This document shows positions 43,898 through 62,387 of a DNA stretch of 64,000 nt, one piece after another. Positions within the stretch are counted from its first letter, which is position 1. Every line of letters starts with the position of its first letter. The translations under genes and the position numbers were made by a program. The notes beneath the pieces are model-generated. The model saw nothing but the letters and a program-made list of their open reading frames with translations. It was not told the DNA's origin and made no database searches. This stretch comes from Guptibacillus hwajinpoensis. Lineage in GTDB: Bacteria; Bacillota; Bacilli; Bacillales; Guptibacillaceae. The DNA lies in contig NZ_JAIVAE010000017.1 in NCBI RefSeq assembly GCF_020171785.1, positions 1-64,000 of the forward strand. The letters run 5' to 3'.

Positions 43898-44887
43898 ATG
43901 GATCAATTTAAAGCATTAGTTGTTAATAAAGTTGAGGATGATACAAATATAGCAATTCAGGAATTTACGAAGGAAGACCTACCTGAAGGTGATGTGTTGA
44001 TCAAAGTTCATTATTCAAGCGTGAATTACAAAGATGGATTAGCAGCGCATCCAAAAGGTAATATCGTAAGAAACTACCCTCATGTTCCAGGGATTGATCT
44101 TGCAGGAGTTGTGGCTGAATCGGATCATCCAGATTGGAAAGAAGGAGACCGCGTCATCGTTACGAGCTATGAATTAGGCGTATCTCATTATGGCGGATTT
44201 AGTGAATACGCAAGAGTGAAATCTGACTGGATTGTCCCGCTTCCCGATGGTTTATCTCTTAAAGAAGCGATGGTTTATGGAACAGCTGGTTTTACGGCCG
44301 CGCTATCTGTTTACCAAATTGAACAAGCAGGAATTAAGCCAGACAAAGGTCCTATCCTTGTAACGGGCGCTACCGGTGGCGTTGGAAGTATGGCTGTTGC
44401 GATTCTTGCCAAAAAGGGATATGAAGTTGTAGCCAGCACAGGGAAAGAATCTGAGCATAGCTATTTAAAAAAGTTAGGCGCAACTACAATTGTTGGCAGG
44501 GAAGAAGTAGCTCCAGAAGGGTTTAAGCCAATTGGTAAGCAAAAGTGGGCTGGCGTAGTGGATCCAGTTGGTGGAGAAACACTTGCAGCTGTATTAAGTA
44601 ACACGATGTACGGCGGCGCTGTGGCGGTTAGTGGTCTTACAGGCGGACCAAAGGTTCCTACGACAGTATTTCCTTTTATTCTAAGAGGCGTTAATTTATT
44701 AGGAATTGATTCTGTGTACTGTCCGATGGAAAAACGGAAAGAGATTTGGAAAAAAGCTGCTGATGAATACAAGCCATCTGAGCATCTTGAAGCTATTCAA
44801 AATGAAATTACTCTTGATGAACTACCAGAAGTATTACGCAACATTTTAAATGGCAAAGTTCGTGGCAGAACAATCGTTGCATTCTAA
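43898..44887 (+). CDS. YhdH/YhfP-family quinone oxidoreductase (acryloyl-CoA reductase-like)
   Basis: 329 residues, zinc-free medium-chain reductase. HYSSVNYKDGLAAHPKGNIVRNYPHVPGIDLAGVV is diagnostic of the YhdH/YhfP/AcuI group, and ILVTGATGGVGSMAVAILAKKGYEVVASTGK is the NADPH site. AcuI members reduce acryloyl-CoA; the substrate of Bacillus YhfP is uncertain. The ATG at 43898 follows AAGGAGGAG. Divergent from a TetR-family gene, which may control it. Confidence 0.9.
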   Translation: MDQFKALVVNKVEDDTNIAIQEFTKEDLPEGDVLIKVHYSSVNYKDGLAAHPKGNIVRNYPHVPGIDLAGVVAESDHPDWKEGDRVIVTSYELGVSHYGGFSEYARVKSDWIVPLPDGLSLKEAMVYGTAGFTAALSVYQIEQAGIKPDKGPILVTGATGGVGSMAVAILAKKGYEVVASTGKESEHSYLKKLGATTIVGREEVAPEGFKPIGKQKWAGVVDPVGGETLAAVLSNTMYGGAVAVSGLTGGPKVPTTVFPFILRGVNLLGIDSVYCPMEKRKEIWKKAADEYKPSEHLEAIQNEITLDELPEVLRNILNGKVRGRTIVAF

Positions 44888-48918: not shown

Positions 48919-49224
48919 ATGTACATTGTTAATTCGGTAATTAACGTACCAGAAGAAAAAGTAGATGAAGTGATTGGCATTTATCAGTCACGTTCGCGAC
49001 GAGTGGATGAGTTTGAGGGATTTGAATCTTTTCGACTTCTCCAAAATGAGAGCAAACCATCAGAACTCACTGTTCAAATGAAGTGGAAAACGAAAGAATC
49101 TTTTTTAACTTGGATTAAAAGTCCTTCTTATAAAGAAATACATGACCTTGAAAAAAAATATCCTGATCAGGAGCTTGCGGCGATAAAACCAAAAGTATCT
49201 CGTTTTAAGGTTGTAGCGGAATGA
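48919..49224 (+). CDS. Heme-degrading monooxygenase-like (ABM domain, HmoA/IsdG type)
   Basis: 101-residue dimeric alpha/beta-barrel (ABM) protein. MYIVNSVINVPEEKVDEVI, the aromatic FEGFESFRLLQ segment, and W-x-x-K-E-S-F-L-T-W-I-K-SPSYKEIH near residues 55-75 match HmoA-type enzymes; the His in KEIHDLEKK is the expected heme ligand. Such enzymes open heme and release iron. AAGGAGGG precedes the ATG at 48919. The stop overlaps the next gene's start by 4 bp, so it is coupled to the cobalamin/STAS module. No Fur box is seen upstream, unlike hmoA. A role other than heme breakdown is possible. Confidence 0.8.
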   Translation: MYIVNSVINVPEEKVDEVIGIYQSRSRRVDEFEGFESFRLLQNESKPSELTVQMKWKTKESFLTWIKSPSYKEIHDLEKKYPDQELAAIKPKVSRFKVVAE

Positions 49225-49601
49225 TGAATCAAATCGACGCGATTATTGACCGGGTTGTTCAGGGTATCTACCATGATATGCCGGAACTATTAGACAAGTT
49301 CGGGGAGCAGGGGCGTGTGAAGTGTCGTGAAGATAATTATCATCACATCAAACACTTGAATTCGGCACGCAACCTGGATTCGAATGATTTTTTTGTTGAC
49401 TATGTTTTATGGTTAAACAACATTCTAACTGCTAGAGGGATGAAAACCGAGCACTTAATTGATAATTTTAAGCGTCTAGAAAATGAATTGCGTGCATCTG
49501 AGTCGTTCGAGGAGAAGGAAGATTATCTTAAAACGTTAAAAATAGGTCTTGCAGAGCTGGAAGAATTAACAGTTGATAGTTCTTCGTATACAAAGAGGTG
49601 A
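49221..49601 (+). CDS. Helical protein of unknown function in the cobalamin/STAS module
   Basis: 126 residues, predicted all-alpha: VVQGIYHDMPELLDKFGEQGR, VKCREDNYHHIKHLNSA, FFVDYVLWLNNILTARGMK and EHLIDNFKRLENELRA read as four amphipathic helices. I recall similar C/D-R-E-D-x-x-x-H-x-x-x-L...DYVxW...L-x-x-R-G segments at the N-termini of some bacterial cobalamin-binding sensors, so it may be the split-off helical domain of such a sensor. Its ATG overlaps the preceding stop (ATGATGA) and its own stop is 4 bp from the next GTG; the genes are clearly coupled. Function is unassigned. Confidence 0.6.
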   Translation: MMNQIDAIIDRVVQGIYHDMPELLDKFGEQGRVKCREDNYHHIKHLNSARNLDSNDFFVDYVLWLNNILTARGMKTEHLIDNFKRLENELRASESFEEKEDYLKTLKIGLAELEELTVDSSSYTKR

Positions 49602-49605
49602 GCAT

Positions 49606-50265
49606 GTGTCGATAGATATAAAAGGGTTAACAGATGATTTTCTTGAAGGTGATCAAGATCAAGCGTGGGAAAGAATAACAGAGCAGGACGAATTGATGGC
49701 AAATAGCCATTTAACTTTTGAAGCTCTTACGAAAGCCATGCAGCGCATTGGTAAGCTATGGGAAGAAAACGAGATATCAGTTGCGGACGAGCACTTAGCT
49801 ACGACTACGTGTGATTATGTTCTTTCACGATATGCCCATTTTAGGAAAATTACGAATAAGAACGAAGGTGGCCCGAAAGCCCTTTTTCTTTGTATTGAAC
49901 AAGAACAGCATTATTTAGGCTTAAAAATGATATCGTTACTCTTTCAAGAATATGGTTGGCAAACAAAGTTGTTTGGAGCCAATTTACCTCTAGAATATGC
50001 CTTAGAAAAAACAGAGAAATGGGGAGCATCAGTTGTTGGTATTTCGGTTGCAATCTTGTACCATGCTGAGCGATTAAATCGTTATGTCACGGAGCTTGAA
50101 GCGTTGGAAAATCCTCCTGAAGTCTTAGTTGGAGGGAGGCTTACCTCACAGTACAACTTGTCTAAATATTGTTCTGAACATACAACGTTGGTTCCGGATT
50201 TACATCGTGTTCGTGAATGGTTGGATGAGCGGAAAGGGAGTATGAATAATGTTCGATATAAATGA
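49606..50265 (+). CDS. Cobalamin-binding protein with CarH/LitR-type photosensory signature
   Basis: 219 residues. Residues 1-80 form the helical capping domain; it contains W52-x9-E62-H63 (LWEENEISVADEH), the W-x9-EH signature of AdoCbl photoreceptors CarH/LitR, in which these residues cover the upper face of the cofactor. Residues 88-205 are a Rossmann-like B12-binding domain with E100-x-H102-x-x-G105 (His expected as lower ligand), ISVAIL (S-x-L region) and VLVGGRL (GG). Unlike CarH there is no MerR-type DNA-binding domain, so output must go through another protein, probably the PAS-STAS protein whose gene overlaps by 17 bp. GTG start after AGAGGTG. Light sensing is inference. Confidence 0.82.
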   Translation: MSIDIKGLTDDFLEGDQDQAWERITEQDELMANSHLTFEALTKAMQRIGKLWEENEISVADEHLATTTCDYVLSRYAHFRKITNKNEGGPKALFLCIEQEQHYLGLKMISLLFQEYGWQTKLFGANLPLEYALEKTEKWGASVVGISVAILYHAERLNRYVTELEALENPPEVLVGGRLTSQYNLSKYCSEHTTLVPDLHRVREWLDERKGSMNNVRYK

Positions 50266-51019
50266 TCATCCACTCCCTGCTTTTTTAGTTGATGAGGAAC
50301 TAAACATTCTTTCGCAATCAAAGCTTGCAACGGAAGCTTTTTCTCCTCGTTCTTCTTTTTTAGAGTTAGTTGACATCGATAGTCGAACGAAAGCTGCAAA
50401 AATGCTGAATCCGCTTTTGAAAGAAACAGAGGTTGAATTAGTTATGGGTACTGCCCAGTCTCCTTATTCTCTCTTTCATGTTTATGCAAAGTGGTCCAAT
50501 AATGGTGGAGGACAGCTTGTGTGTGTAAGGCAAGATGAACGATTGGAAAAACTATCAAATGCGCTTCAAAAACAGCAGGAAAGACTTGCGGATACAAATT
50601 TTGATTTGTTGGATAAAAAAGAAGAGCTTGAAGCAGCTTTAGTGAAAGTGAAAAAGCTTTCTAGCCCTTTCCTCCCCATTTCAACGTCACTTGGCATTAT
50701 TCCATTGTTTGGCGAGCTTGAGGAAAACCTGTTTCGAGTTAATGAGCATCAGCTGTTACAAACGCTTCAGAATGGCGATTATGAACGTGTCATTCTAGAT
50801 TTTAGTGGGATTGGTGAAGTACACGCTAGTGGTGTGCTTGCACTGATTTCGTTTTGTAGTATGCTCGAAGTAGTCGGGGTTTCTCCGATTTTATGTGGGA
50901 TTAATCCAAGCCATGCCCGACATCTAGCGAATCATGACTTTACGTTACACCAACATTTTGATATAACAGGAAATTTAAAAAACGCCGTTAGCTACTATTT
51001 AAATGAGTCTTTCATGTAA
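50249..51019 (+). CDS. PAS-STAS protein, RsbR-like stressosome paralogue
   Basis: 256 residues. The N-terminal PAS-like domain (HPLPAFLVDEELNILSQSKLATEAF, to about residue 100) is followed by a coiled-coil linker (LSNALQKQQERLADTNFDLLDKKEELEAALVKVKKL, residues 105-142) and a STAS domain. The linker-to-STAS segment SSPFLPISTSLGIIPLFGEL matches the conserved S-x-P-x-I-P-V-x-x-x-I-x-x-x-P-L-x-G of RsbR paralogues, and EVHASGVLALISFCSML contains the candidate phosphoacceptor Ser, aligned with the RsbS site. ATG lies 8 bp after AAAGGGAG within the end of the cobalamin gene. It resembles B. subtilis YtvA in layout, with PAS in place of LOV; no photo-active Cys motif (NCRFLQ) is present. Confidence 0.82.
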   Translation: MFDINDHPLPAFLVDEELNILSQSKLATEAFSPRSSFLELVDIDSRTKAAKMLNPLLKETEVELVMGTAQSPYSLFHVYAKWSNNGGGQLVCVRQDERLEKLSNALQKQQERLADTNFDLLDKKEELEAALVKVKKLSSPFLPISTSLGIIPLFGELEENLFRVNEHQLLQTLQNGDYERVILDFSGIGEVHASGVLALISFCSMLEVVGVSPILCGINPSHARHLANHDFTLHQHFDITGNLKNAVSYYLNESFM

Positions 51020-57287: not shown

Positions 57288-57515
57288 ATAAATTCATTCA
57301 AACACAAACTAATTATGGTGAATATGGAACAGATTGGTTCCTTCGAATTCCGAACATTTAGTAGTGAGGACAGCAGGGAATTTTCTAGTTATGTCGAAAA
57401 GTGTGTTAAGATGAAAATGATGTAATGTGCTAAGACTAGGAAAGCATAATTATTGCGAGAGGTTCCATGCAATGAGAAGATAAATGAATGTAGAAAGATC
57501 GTAGGGAGGAGCAAG

Positions 57516-58337
57516 ATGGACAAGTTAGTCATACAATTATTGAATGAAAGTCGTGAACGAATCTACACCAGGTGGATGGATGAGATGGAGAGGGTTCGTG
57601 ATGAGCATCGGCTACAATCAATAACGGATACAGCCTATGAAGAAACGAACAAAGAGCTCTTTGAAATCATTTACACGCATATCGAGCAAAATGTTCATAG
57701 GCCAACAGATCGAATGACAGAGTTTGCTGAACATCTAATGAAGATTGGTTGGAGACTTAGCTATATAACGCAAGGTTTGCAAAACTTCCGTCGAATTATT
57801 TTAGCAGTACTACTAGATGCGAATCAATCGAATGAAAAAGTATACAGTATGTATGATGAAATAGATCGTTGGATTGACCCTATTGTGAACCAGCTGATTA
57901 ATGAAAGTGCAAAGAACTGGGAAAACACAGTTTCTATTCAGAAGGTCGCTCTTCAAGAATTGTCGGCACCGCTTATTCCGGTGTTTGAGAATATTAGTGT
58001 CATGCCACTGATCGGAACTATTGATACTGAGCGAGCCAAGCTGATTATGGAGAATTTGTTAACCGGCGTCATTAAACATCGATCACAAGTGGTCCTTATT
58101 GATATTACTGGAGTGCCTGTAGTCGATACAATGGTAGCTCATCATATTATACAGGCAGCAGAAGCAGTTCGTCTCGTTGGGGCGCAGTGTATTCTAGTTG
58201 GAATTAGACCGGAAATTGCTCAAACAATCGTTAACCTGGGGATCGATCTTGGTCAATTCCCGACGAAAAGCACGTTATTTAAAGGCATGAAAACTGCATT
58301 AGAAATGACAAAACGCAAAATGATTGAGATTGAGTAA
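57516..58337 (+). CDS. rsbR: Stressosome sensor RsbR (RsbRA)
   Basis: 273 residues. The N-terminal globin-like sensor domain (residues 1-130) is followed by a linker helix and a STAS domain. QELSAPLIPVFENISVMPLIGTID is the linker-STAS junction, with its conserved phosphorylatable Thr region, and LIDITGVPVVDTMVAHHIIQAAEAV holds the second Thr. RsbR proteins form the stressosome with RsbS and capture RsbT. ATG follows GGGAGGAG. An extended -10 TGTTAAGAT at 57404-57412 may start the operon. Confidence 0.95.
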   Translation: MDKLVIQLLNESRERIYTRWMDEMERVRDEHRLQSITDTAYEETNKELFEIIYTHIEQNVHRPTDRMTEFAEHLMKIGWRLSYITQGLQNFRRIILAVLLDANQSNEKVYSMYDEIDRWIDPIVNQLINESAKNWENTVSIQKVALQELSAPLIPVFENISVMPLIGTIDTERAKLIMENLLTGVIKHRSQVVLIDITGVPVVDTMVAHHIIQAAEAVRLVGAQCILVGIRPEIAQTIVNLGIDLGQFPTKSTLFKGMKTALEMTKRKMIEIE

Positions 58338-58349
58338 GGGGGGAAGACA

Positions 58350-58706
58350 ATGCGAATTCCTATATTAAAATTGAATCAATATTTACTAATTACAATTCAA
58401 GTTGATCTCGATGACAAAACTGCACTTCAATTTCAGGAAGATTTGCTCGAGAAGATTCATGAAACAGGAGCAAAAGGCGTTGTAATTGATCTAACATCTG
58501 TCGATATGATTGACTCCTTCATTGCTAAAGTTTTAGGCGATGTGGTGCGCATGTCAAATTTAATGGGGGCAAAAGTAGTGCTGACAGGAATCCAACCTGC
58601 TGTTGCTATTACGCTAATTGATTTAGGTATCATGATGAAAAACGTCCCAACTGCATTAGATTTAGAACAGGGGTTAGAGAAATTACAACAGGAATTGGGG
58701 GGATAA
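58350..58706 (+). CDS. rsbS: Stressosome scaffold RsbS
   Basis: 118-residue single STAS domain. The RsbT phosphorylation site is the Ser in [15 protein letters not shown] near residue 59. Antagonises RsbT until phosphorylated. GGGGGG precedes the ATG; 12 bp after rsbR and 3 bp before rsbT. Confidence 0.95.
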
Positions 58707-58709
58707 GTT

Positions 58710-59111
58710 ATGAATATCCAATCCTGTGTGGAAGTACGAAATGAGTGGGATATCGTGAAAGCGAGGCAGTCTGGTAGGAATATTGCTAAAGAACTTGGCT
58801 TCGGTACAGTTGATCAAGCTCGCATTACAACGGCTATTTCTGAACTCGCGCGTAACATATACCTCTATGCCGGAAGTGGCGAAGTAGCCATTGAACGTGT
58901 AGAAAACGGTGGGAAATTTGGTCTTAAAATTGAAGCATCCGACTCTGGTCCAGGAATTAAAGACATTAGAAAAGTAATGGAAGATGGTTTTACAACCTCT
59001 GGTGGTCTTGGAGCTGGTTTACCTGGTGTTAAACGATTGATGGATGAGTTTACAATTGATTCGAAAGAGAACGAAGGTACAGTTATCACTTCTATTAAAT
59101 GGCTCCGTTAA
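58710..59111 (+). CDS. rsbT: Serine/threonine kinase and switch protein RsbT
   Basis: 133 residues, GHKL ATPase fold: ITTAISELARNIYLYAG (N-box), EASDSGPGIKDI (G1) and GGLGAGLPGVKRLMDEF (G2). Phosphorylates RsbS and RsbR, is released, and activates RsbU. AATTGGGGGGA precedes the ATG. Confidence 0.95.
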   Translation: MNIQSCVEVRNEWDIVKARQSGRNIAKELGFGTVDQARITTAISELARNIYLYAGSGEVAIERVENGGKFGLKIEASDSGPGIKDIRKVMEDGFTTSGGLGAGLPGVKRLMDEFTIDSKENEGTVITSIKWLR

Positions 59112-59127
59112 GGAGGGATCGAGCATA

Positions 59128-60138
59128 ATGGACGACCGAGATCTTCAATATCAAAAGTATAAAGCAATATTAGAAAATTATTTAGAAGAGCAATCTGAGC
59201 AAACCTTATATAAGGGACAGCAGTTTAGTCGGAAGATGATTGAACAAAAGATCTCCCCTGAAGAAGCAGTTAGTCTCCATGTAAGTGTTCTAGAGGAACT
59301 ATTTCCTGATATTCCTGAGCCGCTTAAAAACTCGTATGATTTTTTGCTTGAAATGATGATTGGATACGGATTCGCCTATCGAGAGCATCAAAGTCTTCGG
59401 AGTCGACAGCAGCAGTTGGAATCTGAAATTGAAATTGCTGCAAATATGCAACAAACGTTACTAGCGGGCGATAAACCGGAAGTACCCAATCTTGATATTG
59501 GTGCCATTAGTAAACCCGCCCAGAAAATGAGCGGGGATTACTATCACTTTGTTCAAGACGAGAATGATTGTGTAAGTGTAGCGATTGCAGATGTTATTGG
59601 GAAAGGTATTCCCGCCGCACTTTGTATGAGTATGATTAAGTATACAATGGATAGCGCGCCAGAGCAGCGAATGCAGCCAGGAGCTGTTCTAGAGAACCTT
59701 AATCGCGTAGTGGAACAAAATGTTGATCCTAATATGTTTATTACGATGTTTTATGGATTATATGATCCAAGGGTGCATTCATTTTATTACGCTGGAGCCG
59801 GTCATGAGCCGGGCTTTTTTTACGATGCGGAAAAGGATGAATTTGAAGAGCTCTTTACAAAGGGACTTGTGCTTGGTGTTTCAAAGAAAACGTCCTATCA
59901 AGAATATCAGCGCGTACTTAATGGAAATGATATGGTTATCATGCTTTCTGACGGTGTTACAGAATGCCGTTCGACAAATGGTTTTATTGAACGCGATGAA
60001 ATCGTAGCGTTGATTCGTAAATATATTCACCTCTCAGCACAAGAAATTGTGGAAGAGGTTTACCGAGAACTTGAGCGTCTGCAGGAGTTTGAACTTAGAG
60101 ATGATTTCACTCTGGTTATTTTAAGACGCGAGGTTTAA
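59128..60138 (+). CDS. rsbU: RsbV-P phosphatase RsbU
   Basis: 336 residues. The N-terminal domain (1-110) binds RsbT. The PP2C-like domain begins LEIAANMQQTLL-like IEIAANMQQTLL near 113 and carries MSGDYYHF, VAIADVIGKGIPAAL (metal Asp) and IMLSDGVTE near 285. Start at ATG 59128 after AAGGAGGG. The GTTTAA at its 3' end (60133-60138, including the TAA stop) is also the -35 of the candidate SigB promoter. Confidence 0.95.
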   Translation: MDDRDLQYQKYKAILENYLEEQSEQTLYKGQQFSRKMIEQKISPEEAVSLHVSVLEELFPDIPEPLKNSYDFLLEMMIGYGFAYREHQSLRSRQQQLESEIEIAANMQQTLLAGDKPEVPNLDIGAISKPAQKMSGDYYHFVQDENDCVSVAIADVIGKGIPAALCMSMIKYTMDSAPEQRMQPGAVLENLNRVVEQNVDPNMFITMFYGLYDPRVHSFYYAGAGHEPGFFYDAEKDEFEELFTKGLVLGVSKKTSYQEYQRVLNGNDMVIMLSDGVTECRSTNGFIERDEIVALIRKYIHLSAQEIVEEVYRELERLQEFELRDDFTLVILRREV

Positions 60139-60159
60139 CTTCTTTCTAAAAGTGGAATA
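60133..60159 (+). promoter_or_regulatory. Candidate SigB-dependent promoter of rsbV-rsbW-sigB-rsbX
   Basis: GTTTAA (60133-60138), 15-bp spacer, GGAATA (60154-60159). The SigB consensus is GTTTAA-N13-15-GGGTAT; the -35 is perfect and the -10 deviates at position 3. In B. subtilis the SigB promoter is at the same place, with the same AGGTTTAAC context at the end of rsbU, which supports the call. Confidence 0.7.
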
Positions 60160-60213
60160 AGGAAATAATGACTTTAACTAATAATTAGAAGCAACCTAAC
60201 AGGGGGTAATGTT

Positions 60214-60543
60214 ATGAATTTACAGATCAAACAAGAAGATCATGAGAATACACATCATTTACATATAGGTGGAGAGATTGACGCTTACACGGCGCCACAG
60301 TTAAGAGAGGCTTTACTTCCGCTAACTGGAAAAGAAGGTCATGAAACGCTCGTTCATCTTGGTGATGTTAATTATATGGATAGCACAGGTTTAGGTGTAT
60401 TTGTTGGTGCGCTGAAATCTTCCAAAGAGCACGGTAGCTCGTTGAAACTAACTGGAATGACTTCACGCGTACAGCGTCTATTTGAAATCACTGGACTTGA
60501 TGAAGTGATTGACATTGAAGACGTAAAGGGGGGATCAAAGTGA
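60214..60543 (+). CDS. rsbV: Anti-anti-sigma factor RsbV
   Basis: 109-residue STAS protein. The phosphorylatable Ser is in VNYMDSTGLGVFVGAL near residue 57. When unphosphorylated it binds RsbW and frees SigB. AGGGGGT precedes the ATG. The stop overlaps the rsbW GTG by 4 bp. Confidence 0.96.
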   Translation: MNLQIKQEDHENTHHLHIGGEIDAYTAPQLREALLPLTGKEGHETLVHLGDVNYMDSTGLGVFVGALKSSKEHGSSLKLTGMTSRVQRLFEITGLDEVIDIEDVKGGSK

Positions 60544-61022
60544 TAAACATTTCAGATTTTGTTGAAATGAAAATCCCTGCTCAAGCAGAATTTGTTGGCG
60601 TAACAAGATTAACGGTTTCTGGAATTGCGAATCGCATGGGCTACTCCTATGATGAAATCGAGGACATTAAAATAGCACTATCAGAAGCATGTACAAATGC
60701 TGTTAACCACGCATATAAAGAAAATGAAAAAGGACAAATTACTATTGGGTTTGGTATTTATGAAGACCGTTTAGAAATGATGGTCCTTGATCGTGGACAA
60801 AGCTTCGACTATACAAAGGTTTCTGAGAAACTAGGACCAGTTGATAGCGACAAGTCAGTTGAACAACTCAGTGAGGGAGGATTGGGACTCTTTCTGATTG
60901 AATCACTAATGGACAAAGTGGAAATCAGTGGAGAGGACGGAGTAGTAGTCATGATGACAAAGTTCCTCCACAGAGATGGGGTGGAAGTAGATGCCGACAC
61001 AATCTCATCATCCCCGCAATAA
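60540..61022 (+). CDS. rsbW: Anti-sigma-B factor and kinase RsbW
   Basis: 160 residues, GHKL kinase: IKIALSEACTNAVNHAYKE (N-box), MVLDRGQSFD (G1) and EGGLGLFLIESLMD (G2). Binds SigB and phosphorylates RsbV. GTG start coupled to rsbV; its last 32 bp overlap sigB. Confidence 0.95.
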   Translation: MINISDFVEMKIPAQAEFVGVTRLTVSGIANRMGYSYDEIEDIKIALSEACTNAVNHAYKENEKGQITIGFGIYEDRLEMMVLDRGQSFDYTKVSEKLGPVDSDKSVEQLSEGGLGLFLIESLMDKVEISGEDGVVVMMTKFLHRDGVEVDADTISSSPQ

Positions 61023-61782
61023 CAATAACAACGAAGTATATGAGTGGATTGAACAGTACCAAAAGGATCCAACAGACGAAGTTGTGCAATTGAAGCTAGT
61101 GGAGCGATATCAAGATCTCGTTCAGTCACTTGCCCGTAAATTTTCTAAAGGGAAAAGTATTCACGACGATCTTTCTCAAGTAGGGATGATTGGGTTGCTT
61201 GCTGCGCTTCGTCGGTATGATCCTGAATTTGGTAGAAGTTTTGAATCTTTCGCAGTACCTACAATCGTAGGGGAAATCAAACGATTTATTCGAGACAAAA
61301 CGTGGAGCGTACACGTTCCAAGAAGGATTAAAGAACTAGGTCCACGTATTAAGAAGGCAGTCGAAGAACTTACTAATGAACTTCAACGGTCTCCAAAAGT
61401 TGATGAGCTTGCTGAGTATTTAAATGTATCTGAAGAAGAAGTACTTGAGACGATGGAAATGGGCAAAAGTTATCAAGCACTTTCTGTGGATAGTTCAATT
61501 GAAGCTGATCAAGAGGGGAGTACGGTCACATTACTCGATCTTGTTGGCGATCAAGAACAAGGATTTGATCTTGTTGACCAGCAGATGCTTCTTAAAAAGG
61601 CTTTTGCAGTACTCACAGAACGAGAGCAAGAAATTTTGAACTGTACGTACTTTGAGAATATGAGTCAGAAAGAAACAGGTGAGAAGTTGGGTATCTCACA
61701 AATGCATGTTTCCCGTCTGCAAAGAAGAGCCCTAGAAAAATTAAGACAGGCCATTCGAATTGAACCTACGGAGGCTTTCTAG
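60991..61782 (+). CDS. sigB: General stress sigma factor SigB
   Basis: 263 residues, SigB/F/G type. Region 2 includes QLKLVERYQDLVQSLARKFSKGKSIHDDLSQVGMIGLLAALRRYDPEFGRSFESFAVPTIVGEIKRFIRDKTW, region 3 VHVPRRIKELGPRIKKA, and region 4 LTEREQEILNCTYFENMSQKETGEKLGISQMHVSRLQRRALEKL. The ATG lies inside rsbW, with GGGGTGG upstream, as in B. subtilis. rsbX follows after 2 bp. Confidence 0.97.
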   Translation: MPTQSHHPRNNNNNEVYEWIEQYQKDPTDEVVQLKLVERYQDLVQSLARKFSKGKSIHDDLSQVGMIGLLAALRRYDPEFGRSFESFAVPTIVGEIKRFIRDKTWSVHVPRRIKELGPRIKKAVEELTNELQRSPKVDELAEYLNVSEEEVLETMEMGKSYQALSVDSSIEADQEGSTVTLLDLVGDQEQGFDLVDQQMLLKKAFAVLTEREQEILNCTYFENMSQKETGEKLGISQMHVSRLQRRALEKLRQAIRIEPTEAF

Positions 61783-61784
61783 TC

Positions 61785-62387
61785 ATGATCCATCATCATG
61801 ATTTTGAGAAGCTTACTGTTGCTGCATACCAAAAGCCAAAGGCCGGTAACCAGATGTGCGGGGACAGCTATTTTGTGGCTGAAACATCCGATTATTTCAT
61901 TTGTGCTGTAGCAGATGGTCTTGGCAGTGGTGACATGGCCAAGGATTCTTCTTTAGCTGCTATAAATGCAGTGAAGGACTATCAAGAAGAAGACGTAGAA
62001 TCGTTAATGGTACGAGCGAATGAAGAGATGCGAGGAAAACGAGGGTGTGTTCTTTCTGTTTTTAAGCTTGATCTAAAGACGAGGCAACTTGAGTATAGTG
62101 GAATAGGGAATATTAATTTGATTATCTATCAACCAGATGGGAAAATTATTCGCCCGATTTCTTATTCAGGTTATTTGTCAGGTAAGCTACAAAAAGTGAA
62201 AGTGCAAACTATTGATTACCCTTCAGGTTCTTCGTTCGTCACGTATTCTGATGGCGTTCAAATAAGTTCGAAAAACTATTCGATGATTGCTCGTTTCGAC
62301 TCAGTGCATGAATCGTTTAAACATTTAACTGATACGCTTCCGTCTACAAATGATGATATCACTCTCCTTGTAGGGAAAACCGTATAA
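61785..62387 (+). CDS. rsbX: Phosphoserine phosphatase RsbX
   Basis: 200 residues, PP2C family. AVADGLGSGDMAKDSS has the metal-binding Asp, GIGNINLIIY and FVTYSDGVQISS follow. Dephosphorylates RsbS-P and RsbR-P and so resets the stressosome. GGAGG precedes the ATG. Last gene of the operon. Confidence 0.94.
   Translation: MIHHHDFEKLTVAAYQKPKAGNQMCGDSYFVAETSDYFICAVADGLGSGDMAKDSSLAAINAVKDYQEEDVESLMVRANEEMRGKRGCVLSVFKLDLKTRQLEYSGIGNINLIIYQPDGKIIRPISYSGYLSGKLQKVKVQTIDYPSGSSFVTYSDGVQISSKNYSMIARFDSVHESFKHLTDTLPSTNDDITLLVGKTV

Follow-up and report, generated by a model that had tools for sequence, protein, structure and literature searches.

A four-gene operon of Guptibacillus hwajinpoensis that probably encodes a split photocobilin-type light sensor with a predicted stressosome output

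The photocobilins characterised in 2024 were two fused proteins, one of which carries a cyclase output; in vitro, the free proteins act on a cyclase domain supplied separately, and STAS/SpoIIE partners are given for one of them, SasPcob, as a network prediction only (main text of PMC10979010). Among related globins, BBAG-2 binds biliverdin (main text of PMC10151467), and within the stressosome YtvA is described as an RsbR-family subunit that raises the output in blue light (PMC3944199). Here we analysed 64,000 nucleotides of G. hwajinpoensis (positions 1 to 64,000 of contig NZ_JAIVAE010000017.1, assembly GCF_020171785.1, forward strand; hereafter the window). We propose that an operon at 48919–51019 probably encodes a split photocobilin-type light sensor with stressosome output. 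Its pigments would most likely be B12 together with a bilin, a breakdown product of heme, and not B12 alone, because a photoglobin-type gene and an IsdG-fold gene belong to the unit. The four genes, designated by labels coined in this analysis (HO, GLB, CBD and STAS) and assigned to folds on the basis of sequence profiles, are as follows.

48919–49224, + strand, 101 residues: HO, an ABM/IsdG-fold protein of heme-degrading type and probable bilin supplier (Pfam, NCBIfam and PDB profile matches).
49221–49601, + strand, 126 residues: GLB, a predicted stand-alone photoglobin, i.e. a globin of bilin-binding type (PDB profile, invariant D38 and W64).
49606–50265, + strand, 219 residues, GTG start: CBD, a predicted B12-binding protein of the adenosylcobalamin (AdoCbl) photoreceptor type (Pfam, PDB profile, motifs).
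50249–51019, + strand, 256 residues: the STAS partner, a PAS-like/coiled-coil/STAS protein and probable stressosome subunit, the output (Pfam STAS, YtvA model).

HO and GLB overlap by 4 bp, GLB and CBD are separated by 4 bp, and CBD and the STAS gene overlap by 17 bp. In transcription order the unit is HO-GLB-CBD-STAS, beginning one gene before the three-gene system called in an earlier note on this DNA. The last three genes lie where that note placed them, with the 4-bp gap and the 17-bp overlap it gave, while HO (48919–49224) had been missed; the 4-bp overlap it also mentioned was presumably that between its first gene and HO. The ydbT-like gene upstream is not part of the unit, since an unrelated transporter-like gene takes that place before the four genes in genome G001 (locus L018). 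The gene order is shared by relatives beyond what chance would give: GLB was found in 11 of the 15 genomes of the family, and the full HO-GLB-CBD-STAS order in 10 of these 11, one of them from another genus and with a different upstream gene. In G007 (L019), a genome of the window's genus, HO is cut by a premature stop and a deletion extends from GLB into the STAS gene; the unit is therefore decayed as a whole.

CBD matches the Pfam families B12-binding_2 (3.5e-11) and B12-binding (2.8e-11) and, as the earlier note had seen, contains both AdoCbl photoreceptor motifs (W52-x9-E62-H63 and E100-x-H102-x-x-G105), with no DNA-binding domain detected by Pfam in its 219 residues. Residues G49, W52, E62, H63, H102, G105 and G124 are present in all 35 homologues, and E100 in 33 (Asn in the other two), so that the W-x-EH and E/DxH residues of the photocobilin AdoCbl domain are found in CBD. 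The best PDB match of the CBD profile is SasPcob 8J2W (1.3e-27; 2.3e-9 for the window protein alone), and CarH is also among the matches. The signature of light-responsive domains of this class is given as GxxW, EH, GxxH and GxxxP (SignatureFinder; as described in PMC11796333). GxxW and EH occur in 35/35 homologues, and so does G124 of GxxxP (P128 in 34/35); GxxH occurs in 14/35 but not in the window, whose protein has Q there and thus three of the four motifs. Taken at the level of sequence, these features support CBD being an AdoCbl domain of photoreceptor type that lacks a DNA-binding domain, AdoCbl being the predicted cofactor.

The same domain could in principle serve in the dark, sensing B12, heme or redox state and feeding the stressosome: AdoCbl occupancy rather than photolysis would be the signal, and GLB would report heme breakdown. 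B12 does appear to be in use in this organism, the window genome having eight B12 domain matches, six of them over cut-off. We nevertheless regard a dark sensor as very unlikely, given that the W-x9-EH adenosyl pocket of light-responsive domains is invariant (35/35) and that the best solved relatives are photocobilins, CarH matching as well.

The evidence for a second pigment comes from GLB, which had earlier been labelled simply as a small helical protein, a label now superseded by its profile and invariant residues. When the single sequence was compared with the PDB by phmmer, AbPcob 8J2Y came second (E 0.38). With a profile built from 49 homologues, the top matches were the two solved photocobilins (SasPcob 8J2X and 8J2W, 0.008; AbPcob 8J2Y, 0.026), followed by phycocyanin 2VJR (0.028). 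Pfam Phycobilisome was the family matched by most GLB members, 8/49 of them at E up to 0.1 (7.9e-4 at best); 24 families were matched in all, the majority a single time. D38 and W64 are present in 49/49 homologues and align to Asp270 and Trp296 of SasPcob, which are biliverdin contacts (main text of PMC10979010); GLB thus has the bilin-contact Asp and Trp of the globin domain of photocobilins. The chain numbering of 8J2W is 6 less than that of the paper, an offset derived from the CBD alignment: CBD W52, E62-H63 and H102 align to chain residues 55, 65-66 and 102, which are Trp61, Glu71-His72 and His108 in the main text of PMC10979010. The assignment of D38 and W64 to Asp270 and Trp296 follows because the same +6 offset places the CBD motifs on the paper's residues. 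Elsewhere in GLB, C35 aligns to the Cys of the phycocyanin CxRD stretch (Cys in 33/49, Thr in 15/49). GLB is probably a photoglobin, a globin of bilin-binding type for which bilin binding is predicted.

Photocobilins carry their B12 and globin domains fused; in the window, the two parts are separate genes, and the GLB frames found in the family and the order measure 49–171 residues among the matches listed. We also searched 299 genomes across the phylum and obtained nine GLB matches, seven of them outside the order. Six of these seven (L196–L200 and L202, two from one genus) are single frames of 359–368 residues in which GLB is followed by CBD; the other, L201, has GLB and no CBD in the frame. 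The fused gene of L198 is immediately preceded by an HO of the same family (9.7e-44). Of all the observations, the fusion points most strongly to GLB and CBD acting as one. Plasmid records gave three weak GLB matches, two from Azospirillum and one from Skermanella, the latter falling inside a 'cobalamin-dependent protein'.

HO could supply the bilin. The window protein matches Pfam ABM (6.2e-13) and, below the model's cut-off, NCBIfam HmuQ (2.2e-11), a model matched by 45/45 family members (best 4.4e-16); the family profile retrieves from the PDB the heme-degrading monooxygenase 8AVH (7.5e-9), IsdI, IsdG, MhuD and HmoB. The heme-ligand His (H75) is kept in 45/45 members and the Trp (W65) in 43/45, and the column of the catalytic Asn holds Ser in 44/45. 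An Asn-Trp-His triad is reported to be required in IsdG-family enzymes (PMC5557675, PMC6018153), and since its Asn is replaced, we did not file HO as an IsdG-family oxygenase. That HO produces a bilin is suggested by its place beside GLB and by the absence of the canonical heme oxygenase PF01126, found in 0/48 genus representatives (E<=0.001; HugZ-type enzymes were not searched). Operon-type HO (67–100% identical) occurs in 11/15 family genomes, the very 11 with GLB, the two genes being jointly present or jointly missing in 15/15. A second HO-like copy, 28–31% identical to HO (29% in the window genome), lies elsewhere in 15/15.

We then extended the comparison to the whole order (397 genomes, 135 genera). 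GLB is present in 162 genomes from 51 of these genera; one scan gave 23 named loci, including those of Alkalihalophilus pseudofirmus OF4, Metabacillus and Domibacillus. Gene order was read from 48 genus representatives (60 regions were taken, 46 of them one per genus, with g29, g31 and g113 left out, and two genera were added). HO lies directly 5' of GLB in 46/48 representatives and beside GLB in 89/91 loci, some of which come from one genome; L113 (G283) and L125 (G195) are the sole two of the 91 with no HO match directly upstream. The order HO-GLB-CBD-STAS was observed in 27/48 representatives (26, plus L131, which adds an RsbR-type gene in front), and CBD-partner-HO-GLB in four; six have other arrangements. 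In both L109 and L110, CBD is broken into two frames; L110 moreover has a short HO. The remaining 11 representatives have HO-GLB with no CBD in the run, and all 11 genomes have a strong CBD (E below 1e-40) elsewhere; the parts of the sensor can thus lie at two separate loci. In one of them, L117, CBD is just upstream on the opposite strand. Two-gene HO-GLB units with CBD at another locus are seen in L095, L098, L101, L102, L105, L112, L121, L129, L134 and L135.

Over the 397 genomes, GLB and strong CBD occur together in 150, GLB only in 12, CBD only in 24 and neither in 211 (Fisher odds ratio 110, uncorrected for kinship). Forty CBD loci away from GLB, chosen among the matches listed and not by random draw, all had a partner-family gene directly downstream (40/40), in pieces or incomplete in three (L170, L187, L188). 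Within the genus of the window, G003, G004, G005 and G011 have no GLB, but their CBD-STAS pair still occupies the same position, flanked by the ydbT-like and rhomboid genes. CBD and its partner are therefore the core, and HO-GLB is an accessory module that can be lost.

These exceptions could also be read as signs of a B12-only light sensor, in which CBD and STAS would do the sensing and HO and GLB would be heme-recycling neighbours, no bilin taking part in the light response. The four genomes just mentioned and the 11/48 representatives with HO-GLB apart from CBD fit such a sensor, as does the response of AbPcob and SasPcob to green light with AdoCbl alone (main text of PMC10979010). Yet it would leave aside the fusion of GLB to the B12 domain in other Bacillota, the strong co-occurrence of GLB and CBD in the 397 genomes, the invariance of the bilin-contact residues and the joint presence or loss of operon-type HO and GLB in 15/15 family genomes. 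We consider it unlikely, and of the B12 sensor proposed in the earlier note we retain the B12 domain and not B12 as the only pigment.

The presumed receiver of the signal is a gene block further along the window, given here for context.

57453–62387, + strand: rsbR-rsbS-rsbT-rsbU-rsbV-rsbW-sigB-rsbX.

The first three genes were assigned by Pfam (rsbR, Rsbr_N and STAS; rsbS, STAS; rsbT, HATPase) and the others, rsbU, rsbV, rsbW, sigB and rsbX, by eye. The block begins about 6.5 kb downstream of the operon, as previously pointed out. We rejected this nearness as functional proof: the operon precedes a rhomboid gene in a block leading to rsb, and close spacing, judged by eye among the matches listed, was confined to families f1 and f46. 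No Rfam family reached its gathering threshold between positions 44000 and 64000.

The STAS partner of the window contains Pfam STAS (2.1e-7), and its residues 123–233 match the YtvA family model (1.9e-17, below the model's cut-off), giving the linker and C-terminal STAS domain of an RsbR/YtvA subunit. STAS was found by Pfam in 27/29 homologues, and S138, P140, G155 and D184 are present in 29/29. Of the PAS-coiled coil-STAS architecture initially described, the STAS part is thereby confirmed; the term 'PAS-like' for the N-terminal part is a weak one, as Pfam found no PAS domain in the window partner and PAS models match at most 2/29 homologues at E<=0.01. A plausible phosphoacceptor Ser had also been proposed, and this candidate was rejected. 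Indeed, the RsbRA-T171 column has Ser/Thr in 0/29 homologues (Glu in the window), and the RsbRA-T205/RsbS-S59 column in 2/29 (Ala in the window). By comparison, the RsbR of the window has Thr at both columns and its RsbS has Ser at the second. A phospho-switch on the partner protein itself is therefore unlikely, the proposed Ser not being conserved and both RsbT sites missing. Such an input may still signal, because stressosome signalling persisted without T171 and S59 phosphorylation (as reported in PMC3944199).

Genome content agrees with a stressosome output. RsbT (E<=1e-20) was found in 315/397 genomes, that is, in 170/174 with a strong CBD as against 145/223 of the rest. The four strong-CBD genomes that lack it (G076, G163, G187 and G212) all belong to family f20. 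In these, CBD is followed not by a STAS protein but by a partner that shares the N-terminus and is a histidine kinase by type (Pfam HisKA and HATPase_c in L111 of G076, L124 of G187 and L162 of G163; by eye in L211 of G212). The partner has a GGDEF output in L123 and L141. The gene after CBD is thus similar throughout in its N-terminus and varies in its output (STAS, histidine kinase or GGDEF), an interchangeability that the earlier note had also overlooked. In L167, CBD is followed by a short partner with no Pfam domain, next to a CheB-CheR-PAS-kinase protein; L169, L178, L180, L192 and L193 look alike by eye. Through these short partners the same B12 switch may feed a further kind of signalling output.

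Some loci bring stressosome-type genes to the operon itself. RsbR-type STAS genes lie directly 5' of HO, on the same strand, in L131 (2920–3765) and L094 (5362–6171); the latter locus has no partner-family gene after CBD, and the RsbR-type gene may be its output. In L186, a PAS-STAS gene (LOV by eye) and an RsbR-like STAS gene stand beside CBD-STAS. The window genome has a YtvA (LOV-STAS) match over cut-off at G000:C10:51542-54260 (L205), with another linker-STAS match about 1.6 kb beyond it and seven more of this type elsewhere, outside the window. If the operon acts as proposed, it would thus bring a second pigment system to the same pathway.

It could alternatively be that the light sensor is real and that the STAS protein works outside the stressosome, say on another kinase or phosphatase. 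In its favour, both RsbT columns are mostly without Ser/Thr, and other loci pair CBD with histidine kinases, GGDEF proteins or short proteins beside a CheB-CheR-PAS-kinase gene. Set against it are the RsbT count in strong-CBD genomes (170/174), the match of the STAS part to the YtvA model and the RsbR-type or LOV-STAS genes that adjoin the operon in some genomes, and we hold such an output to be improbable. The stressosome output suggested in the earlier note accordingly keeps its STAS basis, with the RsbT count and the genes of L094 and L131 in its favour, and loses its phospho-switch.

The split photocobilin-type sensor with stressosome output, which we rate as somewhat probable, would operate in four steps. 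The IsdG-fold HO would open heme into a linear tetrapyrrole, and the stand-alone photoglobin GLB would hold that bilin, as homology and the invariant contact residues suggest. CBD, whose motifs are present and whose chemistry is modelled on SasPcob, would bind AdoCbl, in keeping with the two cob(I)alamin adenosyltransferase matches of the window genome; green light on B12, or red light via the docked bilin, would break the Co-C bond and change the CBD assembly. This change would reach the N-terminal PAS-like/coiled-coil part of the partner by protein contact, and the partner's STAS domain, seated in the RsbR/RsbS/RsbT stressosome, would alter RsbT release and SigB, acting by shape and not by its own phosphorylation. 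We infer the light response, the bilin chemistry and the entry into the stressosome.

Several observations weigh against this proposal. The matches of GLB to the PDB have E-values no better than 0.008–0.03, and HO, with Ser at the catalytic column in 44/45 members, is no more than a putative heme oxygenase. The two RsbT sites are absent from the STAS part of the partner. Two crude patterns for a SigB-type promoter 5' of HO were found in 0/46 loci (base-shuffled controls, 0.55 and 1.53). The association of GLB with CBD ignores kinship, 12/162 GLB genomes have no strong CBD (including the decayed G007 and G065, where CBD lies over two frames) and 24/174 strong-CBD genomes have no GLB match; the four genomes with CBD-STAS and no HO-GLB are moreover of the window's own genus. 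The genomes without RsbT come from a single family, and kinase partners also occur in RsbT-bearing genomes (L108, L120, L171), partner type and RsbT not being strictly tied.

A wider reading, which we put forward tentatively and hold to be somewhat short of an even chance, is that of a modular two-pigment sensor family with exchangeable parts in Bacillus relatives. The Ser-for-Asn IsdG-fold enzyme would make an unusual bilin carried by the separate photoglobin, the B12 protein would be the switch, and a shared PAS-like adaptor would drive a stressosome, a histidine kinase or a diguanylate cyclase. If true, the general stress response of these bacteria would extend from blue to green and red light. 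A split, operon-encoded sensor would give a genetically tractable system for studying how B12/bilin light signals reach a partner protein, would bear on how inputs enter the stressosome without phosphorylation of the input subunit, and would offer natural split parts for red/green optogenetics.

Literature searches on cobalamin or B12 combined with stressosome or STAS and light revealed no paper on this operon, judging by titles and the starts of abstracts. By word search, the main texts of PMC10979010 and PMC10151467 contain no Bacillus-type name and no 'Firmicutes'; the words STAS and IsdG are not in the main text of PMC10151467, the only one in which IsdG was sought. What is already in print comprises photocobilins (PMC10979010) and separate globin/B12/heme-oxygenase clusters (PMC10151467), according to the main texts of these papers. 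The variant described here is rated as new for being split in Bacillota, for its IsdG-fold companion, for its exchangeable partner and for a STAS output resembling YtvA. Such neighbourhoods may already be shown in the photoglobin paper of Schneider et al. (2022), and priority is not claimed.

HO resembles IsdG, IsdI, MhuD and HmoB in its ABM fold and in the positions of the heme-ligand His and the ruffling Trp, and differs from them by Ser at the catalytic Asn column (44/45) and by being bound to an operon. CBD shares with CarH the helical cap and B12 domain with W-x9-EH; CarH, however, has an N-terminal DNA-binding domain and an operator, whereas CBD has no such domain and a protein partner instead. 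The STAS partner is like YtvA in that a sensor input is joined to STAS by a linker (YtvA model). YtvA holds its flavin in its own chain, whereas the STAS partner would depend on two other proteins to carry the pigments.

As described in the main text of PMC10151467, BBAG-2 and related globins are also encoded apart from the B12 protein and linked to heme oxygenase; those globins come from pre-2 bilin-reductase clusters and from some Myxococcales. The Cys motif of BBAG-2 is RGMC. Many GLB proteins also have an RGM stretch (R 31/49, G 42/49, M 35/49), a possible counterpart of that motif, but no Cys follows it in 49/49. Closest of all are the photocobilins SasPcob and AbDPcob, which combine an AdoCbl domain having the same adenosyl-pocket and Co-ligand residues with a globin domain; both biliverdin-contact residues of SasPcob recur in GLB, and AbPcob has His for the Asp (main text of PMC10979010). 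There, a single chain carries B12 and globin, and the output that was measured is a diguanylate cyclase (same source), whereas the window operon has them in separate genes, beside an IsdG-fold neighbour, in Bacillota and with a STAS output.

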